The position numbers and the translations under genes are program-made. Below the pieces are notes generated by a model that made no database searches, was not told the origin of the DNA, and worked only from the letters and a program-made list of their open reading frames with translations. From assembly GCA_947307505.1 (NCBI GenBank), contig CAMZJG010000093.1, positions 1 through 5,143 of the forward strand: a DNA stretch of 5,143 nt, given 5' to 3'. This DNA comes from an uncultured Clostridia bacterium. GTDB lineage: Bacteria; Bacillota_A; Clostridia; Oscillospirales; Oscillospiraceae. Positions 1,349 through 5,143 of this stretch are shown here, piece by piece; position 1 is the stretch's first letter, and every line of letters begins with the position of its first letter.

Positions 1349-2857
1349 TCATTCTCCGGCATGCTTGATCCCCAGGATCCGCAGTTCCGTCTCGTTCAGG
1401 CCTACGCCCCGGAGCATGAGCCGGTTGCCCCGCAGGGCCTCGATGGAGTTGATGCCCATGCCCCCCATGAGCTCCATGATCTCCCGCTTCCAGGCGGTCA
1501 TGAGGTTCACCAGGCGCTCCGTCCCCACGTCCGGGTTCAGGCGCTTCACCAGGTCCGGCCGCTGGGTGGCGATGCCCCAGTTGCATTTTCCCGTCTGGCA
1601 GGTACGGCAGAGGTGGCAGCCCAGAGCCAGCACTGCAGCGGTGGCGATATACACCGCATCCGCCCCCAGGGCTACGGCCTTCACCACATCCGCGGAGGAG
1701 CGGATGGAACCGCCCGCCACCAGGCTCACGGTATTGCGGATGCCCTCCTCCCGGAGGCGGCTGTCCACGGCGGCCAGGGCCAGCTCGATGGGGATGCCCA
1801 CGTTGTCCCGGATGCGGGTGGGGGCAGCCCCGGTACCGCCCCGGAAGCCGTCGATGGCGATGATGTCCGCCCCGGAGCGGGCGATGCCGCTGGCGATGGC
1901 GGCGATGTTGTGCACCGCGGCCACCTTCACGATCACCGGTTTCCGGTGCCCTGTGGCTTCCTTCAGCGACCACACCAGCTGCCGCAGATCCTCAATGGAA
2001 TAGATATCATGGTGGGGGGCGGGGGAAATGGCGTCGGAGCCCTCGGGGATCATGCGGGTGCGGCTCACGTCCGGCCCCACCTTGGCCCCCGGCAGATGGC
2101 CGCCGATGCCCGGCTTGGCCCCCTGGCCCATCTTGATCTCGATGGCGGCTCCCGCCTCCAGGAAGTCCTCATGCACGCCAAAGCGCCCGGAGGCCACCTG
2201 GACGATGGTGTTGGGACCGTACTGATAGAAATCCTCGTGGAGCCCGCCTTCGCCGGTGTTGTAGCAGGTGCCCAGCTCTGTGGCCGCCCGGGCCAGGGAG
2301 GCATGGGCGTTGTAGCTGATGGAACCGTAGCTCATGGCGGAGAACATCACCGGCATGCTGAGTTCCAGCTGGGGGGTAAGGTCGGTTTTCAGCTGCCCGT
2401 TCTCGTCCCGTGTGAGCTTCTCCGGCTTCTTCCCCAGGAAGACCCGGGTCTCCATGGGCTCCCGCAGGGGGTCAATGGAGGGGTTCGTCACCTGGGAGGC
2501 GTTGATCAGGAGCTTATCCCAATAGACCGGCAGGGGCTTTGGGTTTCCCATGCTGGACAGCAGCACCCCGCCGGAAGAGGCCTGCTTATAGACCTCCCGA
2601 ATGGTATCGGAATCCCAGTTGGCGTTTTCCCGCAGGCGGCATTCGGATCGCACGATCTTCAACGCCCGGGTGGGGCACAGAGAAACGCAGCGCTGGCAGT
2701 TGACGCACTTGGATTCGTCCGAGAGCATCAGATCCCGCTCCGGGTCGTACAGGTGCACCTCGTTGGCGCACTGCCGCTCGCAGACCCGGCAGCGGATGCA
2801 CCGGTCTTCCCGGCGGACGACCTCGAAATCCGGATAGAGGAAATTTACACCGCTCAT
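1349..2857 (-). CDS. gltB: Archaeal-type glutamate synthase, FMN-binding synthase subunit with N-terminal ferredoxin domain
   Basis: This 502-residue protein is the synthase centre: it should combine ammonia released from glutamine with 2-oxoglutarate and reduce the intermediate to glutamate. Residues 20-30 (C20/C23/C26/C30) and 51-61 (C51/C54/C57/C61-P) form a 2x[4Fe-4S] ferredoxin domain. The FMN-binding (beta/alpha)8 synthase domain follows, with MSYGSIS (175-181), NTGEGG (200-205), KMGQGAKPGIGGHLPG (242-257), SPAPHHDIYS (278-287), VKVAAVHN (310-317), DGFRGGTGA (336-344) and AGGSIRSSADV (381-391). C414-x5-C420-x4-C425 matches the [3Fe-4S] ligand spacing of GltB, with WGIATQ after it. No amidotransferase or GXGXG domain is fused, so this is the split form known in archaea, Thermotogales and clostridia. 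The upstream gene's stop overlaps this start as TGATG, and GGAGG lies 10 nt upstream within that gene. The start is therefore well supported. Confidence 0.96.
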   Translation of the reverse strand: MSGVNFLYPDFEVVRREDRCIRCRVCERQCANEVHLYDPERDLMLSDESKCVNCQRCVSLCPTRALKIVRSECRLRENANWDSDTIREVYKQASSGGVLLSSMGNPKPLPVYWDKLLINASQVTNPSIDPLREPMETRVFLGKKPEKLTRDENGQLKTDLTPQLELSMPVMFSAMSYGSISYNAHASLARAATELGTCYNTGEGGLHEDFYQYGPNTIVQVASGRFGVHEDFLEAGAAIEIKMGQGAKPGIGGHLPGAKVGPDVSRTRMIPEGSDAISPAPHHDIYSIEDLRQLVWSLKEATGHRKPVIVKVAAVHNIAAIASGIARSGADIIAIDGFRGGTGAAPTRIRDNVGIPIELALAAVDSRLREEGIRNTVSLVAGGSIRSSADVVKAVALGADAVYIATAAVLALGCHLCRTCQTGKCNWGIATQRPDLVKRLNPDVGTERLVNLMTAWKREIMELMGGMGINSIEALRGNRLMLRGVGLNETELRILGIKHAGE

Positions 2858-3951
2858 CAGAACTGGCCCTCCTTCACCCGCACGATCACCGGCTCCCCGC
2901 CGGCGGGGGCATAGAAGTTCTCCGCATCCGGCTCCATGGCCCGGATGGCCGCCTCCTCCGAGGCGATATAGACCCGGTCGCCCTTCTCCGCCGTTACCAT
3001 GCTCCGGAGCTTCAGCCGGTCGTTCAGGGCCATGAGGCCCCCGGTAAAGCCCAGGACGATGGAGAAGGGTCCGGTGATCAGGAGACTGGGGAACACGGTG
3101 CGCAGGTAGGTGAGCTCCCGCCGCTCCGTCTCCGGCAGTCTCTCAATGGTCTCCCAGAAGGGAGCTGCGATGACAGAAGCGGTTTCCTCCAGGGTAAGGC
3201 CCTGCTTCCGCAGCAGGTAATCCGCGATATAGGTGATGACCTCCGTGTCTGTCTGGAGGGTGCATTTGTATCCGTACATCTCCATGCAGCGGCGGTTGGC
3301 GTCGTAGGAGGAGATCTCCCCGTTGTGGACCACCGTCCAGTCCAGCAGGGCGAAGGGATGGGCCCCGCCCCACCAGCCGGGGGTGTTGGTGGGATAGCGG
3401 CCATGGGCGGTCCAGCAATAGGCCCCGTATTCCTCCAGCCGGTAAAACTCTCCCACGTCCTCCGGGAAGCCCACTGCCTTGAAGACTCCCATGTTCTTCC
3501 CGCTGGAGAAGACGTAGGCCCCGTTTATTGTGGTGTTGATGTGCATCACCACCCGGGCGATGTACTCATTCTCGTCCACCTGCATGGAGGCCAGCACGCT
3601 CCGGAGAGGGGTGACGAAATAGCGCCAGATCAGGGGCTCATCCGTAATGGCGGGGATGGTGCGGGTGGGAATGGTCTCCCCTTTCACCAACTCCAGAGCG
3701 GTTCGGATATACGCTTCGCACTCCTCCCTGGCCTTCAGGCTGTCATAAAAGAGGTGCAGGGCAAAGAGCTCCTTATACTCCGGATAGATGCCATATCCCG
3801 CAAAGCCGCCCCCCAGCCCGTTGGACCGCTCGTGCATGGGCTTCATGCTCTCGATGATCTTCTCCCCGCTCATGCGTTCCCCGCTTCTGGAGATCACCGC
3901 CGCGATGGCGCAGCCGGAGGGGTTGCGGAACTCGCCTTCTTTTTGACGCAT
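2857..3951 (-). CDS. Class II glutamine amidotransferase subunit of split glutamate synthase (GltB domain-1 type)
   Basis: This protein should hydrolyse glutamine and supply ammonia to the FMN subunit encoded next. I choose the ATG at 3951 (364 residues, MRQKEGEF). The more upstream ATG at 3960 directly abuts the GGGAG Shine-Dalgarno with no spacer, while 3951 is 9 nt away. In 3951 numbering, the conserved N-terminus is NPSGCAIAAVIS, putting the candidate nucleophile Cys at 14. GltB-like class II motifs follow: HGRYPTNT (183-190), GAHPF (196-200), VHNGEIS (208-214), QTDTE (233-237) and ASEEAAI (330-336). An insertion-like region of about 120 residues separates the Cys segment from HGRYPTNT. 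Class II enzymes need a free N-terminal Cys, so a 13-residue propeptide must be removed, or glutaminase activity is absent. It is the first gene of the leftward operon and overlaps the next by 1 nt. Confidence 0.92.
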   Translation of the reverse strand: MRQKEGEFRNPSGCAIAAVISRSGERMSGEKIIESMKPMHERSNGLGGGFAGYGIYPEYKELFALHLFYDSLKAREECEAYIRTALELVKGETIPTRTIPAITDEPLIWRYFVTPLRSVLASMQVDENEYIARVVMHINTTINGAYVFSSGKNMGVFKAVGFPEDVGEFYRLEEYGAYCWTAHGRYPTNTPGWWGGAHPFALLDWTVVHNGEISSYDANRRCMEMYGYKCTLQTDTEVITYIADYLLRKQGLTLEETASVIAAPFWETIERLPETERRELTYLRTVFPSLLITGPFSIVLGFTGGLMALNDRLKLRSMVTAEKGDRVYIASEEAAIRAMEPDAENFYAPAGGEPVIVRVKEGQF

Positions 3952-3960
3952 GGACTTCAT

Positions 3961-3965
3961 CTCCC
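3961..3965 (-). promoter_or_regulatory. Ribosome binding site of the amidotransferase gene
   Basis: GGGAG on the minus strand lies 9 nt before ATG at 3951 and touches the other in-frame ATG at 3960. The spacing decides for the inner start. It begins only three bases after the terminator U-tract, so read-through of that terminator is needed for the site to be made at all. Confidence 0.7.
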
Positions 3966-3968
3966 ATC

Positions 3969-4025
3969 AAAGAAAAAGCAAAGGCCTCCGTTTGGGCACA
4001 AAAACCCAAGCAGAGCGCCTTTGCT
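3969..4025 (-). terminator. Leader intrinsic terminator (attenuator) of the leftward glutamate synthase operon
   Basis: Reading the minus strand, AGCAAAGGC (4025-4017) pairs perfectly with GCCTTTGCT (3985-3977). After one bulged G (4016) the stem continues for 5 bp (4015-4011 with 3990-3986, one U-G). A C/A mismatch follows, then 5 bp TTGGG/CCCAA (4009-4005 with 3996-3992) and an 8-base loop. The hairpin is followed by TTTTTCTTT. It lies between the promoter and the Shine-Dalgarno and no gene ends here, so it cannot be an end-of-operon terminator. Its 5' arm contains the six-base loop of the competing hairpin at 4008-4031. Confidence 0.85.
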
Positions 4026-4031
4026 CTGCTT
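4008..4031 (-). promoter_or_regulatory. Candidate antiterminator hairpin with A1/G4 hexaloop (ANTAR-target-like), glutamate synthase leader
   Basis: On the minus strand AGCAGAGC pairs with GCTCTGCT around the six-base loop AAAGGC (4022-4017). The DNA repeat is 9 bp if the outer A-T pair is counted. From the predicted start near 4027 the RNA would still form AGAGC/GCUCU. Loop A1 and G4 are the bases conserved in RNA targets of ANTAR antiterminators such as EutV and NasR. Loop and 3' stem bases are also needed by the terminator, so the two folds exclude each other. The regulator itself is not in the window. Confidence 0.65.
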
Positions 4032-4033
4032 TT

Positions 4034-4062
4034 ACCATACTCCAACGGCTCAGACTTGTCAA
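4034..4062 (-). promoter_or_regulatory. Sigma-A-type promoter of the glutamate synthase operon
   Basis: TTGACA (4062-4057) is a perfect -35 and TATGGT (4039-4034) a 4/6 match to the -10, separated by exactly 17 bp. The predicted transcript start is about 4027. The 69 bp between this -35 and the opposing -35 at 4132 are AT-rich and show no further element I can support. Confidence 0.8.
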
Positions 4063-4131
4063 TGCTGGCTCAATGAAATTTTGACAAAAAACCGCTTCTT
4101 CGATTCCTTTCGTTTTTTTGCAAATTGACGG

Positions 4132-4160
4132 TTGACAATTCTCTCCGCTGGGAGTAATAT
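4132..4160 (+). promoter_or_regulatory. Sigma-A-type promoter of the glutamine synthetase gene
   Basis: TTGACA (4132-4137, perfect -35) and TAATAT (4155-4160, 4/6 match to the -10) are separated by exactly 17 bp. The expected start near 4167 puts the regulatory hairpin at the very 5' end of the RNA and gives an untranslated leader of roughly 79 nt. Confidence 0.85.
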
Positions 4161-4169
4161 GGCCGCGTC

Positions 4170-4187
4170 AGAGACAAGGACGTCTTT
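4170..4187 (+). promoter_or_regulatory. Candidate antiterminator hairpin with A1/G4 hexaloop (ANTAR-target-like), glutamine synthetase leader
   Basis: AGAGAC (4170-4175) pairs with GTCTTT (4182-4187), six pairs including one G-U, around the six-base loop AAGGAC (4176-4181). Loop A1 and G4 match the conserved positions of ANTAR-protein RNA targets. The loop and the CG at its 3' junction are also in the 5' arm of the overlapping terminator, so the two structures exclude each other. The stem is weaker than in the opposite leader, as expected for a fold that needs protein to hold it. Confidence 0.6.
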
Positions 4188-4222
4188 CGGGCATTGCCCG
4201 GGCGTCCTTGTTTTTTTGTTTT
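4174..4222 (+). terminator. Leader intrinsic terminator (attenuator) of glutamine synthetase
   Basis: ACAAGGACG (4174-4182) pairs perfectly with CGTCCTTGT (4203-4211). Two more pairs, a small bulge and an apical CGGGC/GCCCG stem (4188-4192 with 4196-4200, loop ATT) complete the hairpin. It is followed by seven T, a G and four T (4211-4222). It sits between the promoter and the Shine-Dalgarno of a single divergent gene, so it can only act on that gene's own transcript. This is the typical arrangement of transcription attenuation. Confidence 0.88.
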
Positions 4223-4231
4223 GCCGATCGA

Positions 4232-4239
4232 AAGGAGAG
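4232..4239 (+). promoter_or_regulatory. Ribosome binding site of glutamine synthetase
   Basis: AAGGAGAG, with its GGAG core 8 nt before ATG at 4246. It lies outside the terminator stem, so control is more likely at transcription than by masking of this site. Confidence 0.85.
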
Positions 4240-4245
4240 ATCATC

Positions 4246-5143
4246 ATGTCATCCGTACCGGAGATTTTTGCCAGCAAGGTGTTTGACGACAAGGTCATGC
4301 GCGCCATGCTGCCGGAGAAGGTCTACCGCTCTCTGCGCAAGACCATTGATAACGGCCAGCCCCTGGACCAGAAGCTGGCCAATTCCGTGGCCGAGGCCAT
4401 GTGCGCCTGGGCTGTGGAGAACGGAGCGACCCACTTCACCCACTGGTTCCAGCCCCTCACGGGCATCACCGCGGAGAAGCACGATGGTTTTTTGAATCCC
4501 GCCCCGGACGGCCGGGTGATCATGGAGCTCACGGGGAAAGAGCTCATCCAGGGCGAGCCGGATGCCTCCAGCTTCCCCTCCGGCGGCCTCCGGGCCACCT
4601 TCGAGGCCAGGGGCTACACCGCCTGGGACCCCAGCAGCTACGCTTTTATTAAGGAGAACACCCTGTGCATCCCCACTGCCTTCTGTTCCTACGGCGGGGA
4701 AGCTCTGGATAAGAAGACGCCTCTCCTGCGGAGCATGGAAGCTCTGAACAAGCAGGCGCTCCGCATTCTCCGCCTCTTCGGGAGCACGGAGGTCAGGCGG
4801 GTCACCACCAATGTCGGGCCTGAGCAGGAGTACTTCCTGGTGGACCGGGAGATGTACCTGAAGCGGAAAGACCTCATCTATACCGGCCGCACCCTCTTCG
4901 GAGCCAAGCCCCCCAAGGGCCAGGAGCTGGAGGATCACTACTTCGGGGCCATCAAGCCCCGGGTGCAGGCTTACATGGAGGAGCTGAACGAGGAGCTGTG
5001 GAAGCTGGGCATCCTGGCCAAGACGGAGCACAACGAGGTGGCCCCCGCCCAGCACGAGCTGGCCCCCATCTACGCCACCACCAACGTGGCCACGGACCAC
5101 AACCAGCTCACCATGGAGATCATGAAGAAGGTGGCCCGGAAGC
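4246..5143 (+). CDS. glnN: Glutamine synthetase type III, GlnN family (N-terminal 299 codons; cut by window edge)
   Basis: The enzyme makes glutamine from glutamate, ammonia and ATP in the cytoplasm. The open frame starts [10 protein letters not shown] and runs to the right edge. Type III signatures are visible in order: [13 protein letters not shown] (61-73) with AEKHD (76-80); [19 protein letters not shown] (110-128); [10 protein letters not shown] (154-163); [11 protein letters not shown] (190-200), which carries metal/substrate Glu residues; [14 protein letters not shown] (213-226) and LEDHYFG (228-234); and [15 protein letters not shown] (261-275) with DHNQL (284-288). Types I and II (about 350-470 residues) lack the HFTHWFQP segment; type III proteins are about 700 residues, so more than half the gene lies outside. 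It is divergent from the glutamate synthase operon, completing the GS-GOGAT pair, and its leader carries an attenuator. Databases often label such genes glnA. Confidence 0.96.

Follow-up and report, generated by a model that had tools for sequence, protein, structure and literature searches.

The region between gltB1 and glnN of an uncultured Clostridia bacterium raises the question of whether a transcription attenuator with one hexaloop hairpin can be worked by an ANTAR antiterminator. The window, that is, the whole stretch of 5,143 nt that was analysed, carries on its minus strand gltB1, the gene for the GOGAT FMN domain and a pair of redox genes, and on its plus strand the glutamine synthetase (GS) gene glnN; the divergent region between gltB1 and glnN (3961-4245) holds two back-to-back leaders, one per strand. 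According to the EutV target study (PMC3369931), EutV requires the two hairpins in vivo, induction is lost when P1 is deleted, and linkers of 3 or 14 nt do not work. In the EutV structure paper (PMC8934654) the first hairpin is proposed to recruit the EutV dimer and the minimal binding motif is one hexaloop, while two are kept as required for antitermination and the role of single hexaloops is said to need more work.

The first-pass annotation had described promoters, hexaloop hairpins and terminators on both strands of this region, and all of these parts were recovered as follows.

2857-3960, minus strand: gltB1, stand-alone glutamine amidotransferase domain of GOGAT (PF00310; GATase_2 1.7e-10)
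3970-4026, minus strand: GOGAT terminator consuming the hexaloop (paired 4026-3976), U-rich tract about 3978-3970 (-33.6 kcal/mol, z -5.98)
3992-4009, minus strand: apical hairpin of the GOGAT leader, loop UUUUGU (from folds)
4008-4031, minus strand: GOGAT hexaloop hairpin, proposed antiterminator, loop AAAGGC at 4022-4017 (fold -15.2 kcal/mol, z -3.77)
4034-4062, minus strand: promoter-like site of the gltB operon, TTGACA (4062-4057), 17 nt, TATGGT (4039-4034) (consensus scan, 10/12 matches)
4132-4160, plus strand: promoter-like site of glnN, TTGACA (4132-4137), 17 nt, TAATAT (4155-4160) (consensus scan, 10/12 matches)
4170-4187, plus strand: GS hexaloop hairpin, proposed antiterminator, loop AAGGAC at 4176-4181 (weak alone, forms in the 34-nt intermediate)
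4170-4217, plus strand: GS terminator consuming the hexaloop (paired 4170-4215), U tract 4211-4217 (-29.3 kcal/mol, z -7.22)
4188-4200, plus strand: apical hairpin of the GS leader, loop AUU (from the fold)
4246-5143, plus strand: glnN, type III glutamine synthetase, truncated where the window ends (GSIII_N 8.3e-80)

The promoter scan of 3900-4300 found two sigma-70-like sites, one per strand (0.2 in shuffles), and the predicted RNA starts lie at about 4027 on the GOGAT side (minus strand) and about 4167 on the GS side (plus strand). On both sides the full leader folds into a single long terminator, equalled by 0 of 200 shuffles for each, and the intermediates of 38 nt (GOGAT) and 34 nt (GS) from the predicted starts fold into the hexaloop plus the apical hairpin, with 16 of 200 and 6 of 200 shuffles, respectively, folding equally well. 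Both loops are of the A1/G4 type, the hexaloop overlaps the intrinsic terminator in both folded leaders, and the order of elements is the same: promoter, hexaloop hairpin, second hairpin, an arm able to pair with the loop and the sequence after it, and a U-rich tract. The layout that had been proposed as common to both arms, with the hexaloop at the predicted start and a terminator that consumes the loop, is thus borne out. The GS hexaloop by itself is no more stable than shuffles (-5.2 kcal/mol, z -0.15, 83/200), and for this reason its support is comparative. Of the earlier description of the apical loops it stands that neither is an A1/G4 hexaloop and that the GS-side loop, AUU, has three bases, but in the minimum-energy fold the GOGAT-side loop, described as 8-base or U-rich, has six bases (UUUUGU). 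The scan for dual hexaloops at the published spacing found none in the window; two extra A1/G4 hairpins on the minus strand, with the first loop base at 4096 (6 pairs) and 4144 (4 pairs), are both upstream of the GOGAT promoter. A known Rfam riboswitch or leader family was rejected as the identity of these leaders, since comparison of the window and of seven related loci with Rfam gave no match above a gathering score.

In the contigs of relatives the search for gltB1 gave 31 loci, of which 29 (L001-L029) were used and two holding the end of the gene only (L030, L031) were left out. An A1/G4 hexaloop stands before gltB1 in 27 of the 29 relatives, preceded in 25 by a -10 box and a -35 box of 5 or 6 matches; on the other strand of this region, 24 of the 29 have a promoter-bearing hexaloop. 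Before gltB1 of L012 and L026 the hexaloop was not found, though an ANTAR gene is present in the gltB cluster; in L008 and L025 the contig ends before the promoter position of the gltB1 leader, and in L023 the script did not find a terminator on the gltB1 side. The opposite-side gene of Ruminococcus albus 8 is pyrG (L068). In the same strain two successive promoter-hexaloop units, both with a promoter of their own, precede gltB1 (L021).

The wider survey was based on R1, a 22-nt covariance model of the hexaloop only, built from 45 sequences with promoter and terminator left out and applied to 20 relatives and to 297 genomes belonging to the order of R. albus AR67. At E ≤ 0.03 it matched 169 of the 297 genomes, which is too loose alone, so only units with a terminator were counted, a unit being a hexaloop (stem ≥ 5) whose loop is consumed by a terminator with a U tract; in the relatives most R1 matches of weaker score lie inside genes and are not units. 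The 106 stretches read (L112-L217) are the R1 matches listed at E ≤ 0.0056 minus those in G027 and G028, which the run on the relatives covered, and the genome counts are lower bounds. Among the matches listed, these stretches hold 138 hexaloop/terminator units, or 136 distinct 60-mers, against a mean of 1.3 in three dinucleotide shuffles, and a promoter-like site is present ahead of 109 of them against 0 in shuffles; A1/G4 is required by the unit scan and hence is no independent result there. With 27 of 29 gltB1 relatives and this excess over the shuffle sets, the motif recurs in related genomes, and this check of the first-pass annotation speaks for it.

Without second-in-series members, 105 units among the matches listed have a promoter, with a perfect TTGACA in 93, and the stem lies 6-11 nt after the -10 box in 92 and at most 13 nt after it in 97. 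Transcription starts about 7 nt after the -10 box, which would place the 5' end of the RNA at the foot of the hexaloop. The 29 listed units without promoter include 15 that are second in a series. The 19 pairs in series among the matches listed are 43-387 nt apart, have their own terminator each and mostly precede glnN (L113, L115, L117, L118, L120, L123-L126, L128, L140-L142, L147, L157, L164, L165, L193, L212); they are repeated attenuators rather than P1/P2 pairs, possibly stacked switches.

The stem was assessed on 175 distinct promoter-anchored AANGNC sites, picked within the stretches regardless of pairing. Stem pairs 1-7 form at 0.85, 0.78, 0.79, 0.88, 0.81, 0.62, and 0.55 of the sites, compared with 0.65, 0.68, 0.53, 0.51, 0.45, 0.49, and 0.41 when the 3' sides are re-dealt, while pairs 8 and 9 show no excess over the re-dealt 3' sides; as a hairpin model served to find the stretches, the test is not independent of that choice. 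Double changes that preserve pairing occur in 83 cells of the 45-sequence alignment, against 34.6 in shuffles (reached by 0 of 500), the sequences having been picked with a motif that fixes the closing pairs, and neither the number of pairs nor that of pair types is above shuffles. Stem covariation, recurrence and the promoter-proximal position are established features of this hexaloop.

The genes behind the units were assigned by BLAST against representatives, and among the matches listed 131 of the 138 units precede genes for GS, GOGAT, gdhA, glutamine-using enzymes, nucleotide synthesis or related nitrogen functions. The targets are type III GS (57), gltB1 (45), gdhA (9), purC (4), type I glnA (3), pyrG (3), asnA (3), purF (2), full-length gltB (2), purA (1), amt (1), and guaA (1), with 7 other or unclear. 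On nine representatives NCBIfam placed purF, purC, guaA, gdhA, asnA, pyrG, and purA above the curated cut-off, and the contig-cut pieces of glnA and amt fell below it, yet had these families as best match; pyrG, gdhA, and asnA were also read from the sequences as targets in the close relatives. The purA unit is that of L163 (G112). Two units precede genes for a 6-phosphofructokinase-like protein (L196, G167) and a sodium-dependent-transporter-like protein (L207, G224), as read from the sequence; with no promoter in front, these two may be chance matches.

A second hexaloop was sought upstream of the units, with controls at random positions of the same stretches. Among the matches listed an A1/G4 hexaloop (stem ≥ 4) lies 2-20 nt upstream of 1 of 138 units compared with 4.1% at random positions, and when 3-bp stems are allowed, upstream of 7 of 138 compared with 6.3%, six of the seven overlapping the -10 box. 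In a positive control run without shuffles, the same scanner detected duals with P1 stems of 4-9 pairs in 5 of 16 stretches around clostridial eutB (L279 twice, L282, L284, L288, L293); two further eutB candidates (L283 and the opposite strand of L284) resemble chance matches. The PduV/EutP loci (PF10662), taken as the first control, gave no duals (0 of 6 overlaps), and a looser scan of them gave 1 against 1 in the shuffle. In another dual scan P1 was found at 1 of 167 overlaps in the 106 stretches of the order (matches listed), at 1 of 61 in the 29 relatives and at 1 of 37 in 27 class-wide loci (L221-L247), and no AANGRC loop was present upstream in that scan except in L176, where the "P2" is a different hairpin behind a unit. 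Finding a second A1/G4 hexaloop would have returned these leaders to the known dual motif; on the sequence side, duals at the known spacing are at chance level with a positive eut control, as the annotation of a single hexaloop at the predicted 5' end had implied. Because the predicted promoters, if read correctly, start the RNA at the hexaloop, no first hairpin can exist in these leaders. The loops of the eutB duals are AAWGAW in several cases and not AANGRC.

A candidate regulator is provided by the ANTAR family (PF03861), which is present in 26 of the 30 genomes of relatives, 25 of them above the cut-off (the weak 26th match, in G029, seems to be a different protein), and in 196 of the 297 genomes of the order, 194 of them above the cut-off. 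Among the matches listed 62 of the 63 genomes with a unit are ANTAR-positive, G112 being the exception, compared with 196 of 297 order-wide; the Fisher test of 62/196 against 1/101 genomes with a unit (matches listed) gives p 4e-12, uncorrected for kinship. A single ANTAR match is found in 174 of the 196 positive genomes, and the earlier proposal of one common trans-acting regulator fits these counts. The 106 listed stretches come from 88 genomes, of which 25 have no unit (15 ANTAR-positive and 10 negative). Five relatives (G008, G010, G017, G022, G029) have leaders with no ANTAR gene found by Pfam or by alignment A2; these genomes are metagenome-assembled, and gaps in assembly possibly lie behind the missing gene.

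In 21 of 26 usable ANTAR loci (contig-edge L039, L050, and L060 and the false match L057 being left out) the ANTAR gene is preceded by a type I GS-like gene on the same strand, which adjoins it in 15 and is separated from it by about 390-510 nt in 6. The distance from the gltB1 start to an ANTAR gene downstream of it on the same strand is 5.1-7.3 kb in 11 loci (L012-L016, L018, L023, L025-L028). The ANTAR proteins of relatives were aligned to EutV, AmiR, NasR, and Rv1626, with EutV numbering taken from PMC8934654 and matched at an offset of two. The phospho-acceptor Asp of the receiver is absent from all 22 aligned proteins, being replaced by Asn in 18 and Ser in 4. Met172, Lys149, and Glu160 of EutV are conserved, Lys143 and Lys147 are mostly replaced by Arg, and Tyr164 is mostly replaced by His, which AmiR has there too; Arg142 is conserved neither in these proteins nor in AmiR. 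By this alignment the RNA-touching residues of EutV are largely conserved.

According to these data the two leaders probably belong to a single-hexaloop class of attenuator that one ANTAR antiterminator recognises within a nitrogen/glutamine regulon. RNA polymerase would begin transcription no more than a few bases from the foot of the hexaloop stem, and the hexaloop hairpin with its AANGRC loop would therefore emerge first. Without active regulator the downstream arm would invade the loop and the 3' part of its stem, the terminator would form, and transcription of glnN or of the gltB operon would end after about 50-60 nt. An active ANTAR protein would keep the single hexaloop closed, the terminator would not form, and the operon would be read. 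The same element before GS, GOGAT, gdhA, amt, asnA, and genes of glutamine-using enzymes would make up the regulon, and the signal would be nitrogen status, reaching a degenerate receiver through protein contact, perhaps with the neighbouring type I GS, rather than through phosphorylation. The binding of ANTAR protein to these leaders, antitermination by this binding and transcript starts at the predicted sites are all inferred from sequence. One hairpin might suffice if the dimer forms without need of phosphorylation, if affinity is higher or if more time is given. A more specific version, in which the recruitment hairpin can be dispensed with, as the antiterminator hairpin itself begins the RNA, and in which the activity of a pseudo-receiver ANTAR protein depends on contact with the type I GS encoded beside it, is possible but rather doubtful; if true, the enzyme would report nitrogen status straight to nascent RNA.

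Several facts speak against this reading. Five leader-bearing relatives and G112 have no ANTAR gene found, L026 and L012 have one but lack the gltB1 hexaloop, and 15 ANTAR-positive genomes with an R1 match, among those listed, showed no unit in the stretch. To these are added the change of Tyr164 to His, the loss of Arg142 and the in vivo requirement of EutV for both hairpins (PMC3369931).

That the attenuators are worked by another factor (an RNA-binding protein, an sRNA or a metabolite), the loop being ANTAR-like by resemblance, would account for leader-bearing genomes in which no ANTAR gene was found, yet it is unlikely: the A1/G4 loop with C-G closing pair matches known ANTAR targets, ANTAR genes accompany nearly all listed unit genomes and lie near gltB1 in 11 loci, and no Rfam family reached the gathering level in the stretches scanned. 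The studied dual-hexaloop target, with the first hexaloop supplied by a longer transcript or a cryptic upstream hairpin, was rejected as quite unlikely. The dual form has been shown for EutV, NasR, and AmiR (PMC3369931), the window has its two further A1/G4 hairpins, and the looser dual scan of the 106 loci (matches listed) gave 5 strand-stretches against 0 in one shuffle. Of these five, however, three coincide in part with the -10 box, one, between series units, is an A/T hairpin of 3 bp, and one is not at a unit. Moreover, the hairpins of the window lie upstream of the promoter with linkers far above the 5-12 nt reported for eut, the promoter spacing of the listed units is tight, and the scanner that finds eut duals finds them at chance level here.

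The first-pass annotation had also raised the possibility that two RNAs of one divergent region pair on one protein dimer, so that two single hexaloops act as a dual target. The arrangement would allow it, since an opposite-strand unit lies within 700 bp of 98 of the 138 units (matches listed), and the EutV crystal dimer holds the hexaloops of two RNA molecules (PMC8934654). Against it, 22 promoter-bearing units among the matches listed, before gdhA, pyrG, purF, and others, are isolated, each with 700 bp or more of read sequence to either side and no further unit inside 700 bp, and Walshe et al. (PMC8934654) consider it unlikely that two hexaloops are bound in trans within the time that transcription allows. 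Bridging of the two RNAs of a divergent pair is thus not required and as an explanation is very unlikely. Chance hairpins or plain constitutive terminators, to which the weakness of the isolated GS hexaloop might point, have a negligible probability and were rejected in view of the contrast of 138 listed units with 1.3 per shuffle set, together with stem covariation and tight promoter spacing.

The favoured single-hexaloop attenuators share with the EutV-type duals (E. faecalis eut, nasF/NasR, amiE/AmiR) the A1/G4 hexaloop with C-G closing pair, its position at the 5' base of an intrinsic terminator, an ANTAR protein in the genome (here in those of relatives) and the nitrogen theme. They differ in the lack of a first hexaloop, the RNA seeming to start at the single hairpin, in the loop (AANGRC here; AATGAT, AAAGAA, AATGAA and such in the five clostridial eut stretches, so that positions 5 and 6 of the loop may distinguish the two ANTAR systems), and in the relatives' receivers without phospho-acceptor Asp, in contrast to the phosphorylation-controlled REC-ANTAR proteins of the EutV type. 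In this last respect the relatives' proteins resemble P. aeruginosa AmiR, whose receiver-like half lacks phosphorylation chemistry (PMC8934654); they also resemble it in the His at the Tyr164 position and the unkept Arg142, but their gene neighbourhood is GOGAT and type I GS rather than amidase, and the leaders have one hexaloop.

In solvent-forming Clostridium the antiterminator gene nitR reportedly adjoins glnA, an ANTAR gene beside a type I GS gene as in the relatives studied here. In Ramesh et al. 2012, ANTAR regulons with glutamate, glutamine and nitrogenase genes were predicted in Desulfotomaculum and Pelobacter, with glutamate and glutamine synthases and ammonium transporters among the targets as in the present set; single-hexaloop targets lay outside that search because its covariance model was built on the dual hairpin. 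In the open-access ANTAR and hexaloop literature searched, no single-hexaloop attenuator is described, and models of two hairpins would miss such a class. Many natural leaders with one hexaloop tied to both the terminator and the transcript start would make the question of why two hairpins are used testable on ready-made substrates, and a nitrogen/glutamine regulon with an unusual receiver is suggested for Ruminococcus and relatives.

Two minor features of the window concern the gltB1 operon. A palindrome-rich segment of about 190 bp (1157-1345) lies inside it, between the GOGAT FMN-domain gene and the Fe-S gene; it had no blastn match at any other locus compared, and an Rfam match to Xoo1 within it is weak and sub-threshold. 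In the segment 3951-3965, the gltB1 start as listed, ATG 3960, follows the probable Shine-Dalgarno sequence GGGAG without any spacer, and the better fit of ATG 3951 to Shine-Dalgarno spacing and to the relatives suggests the latter as the start.
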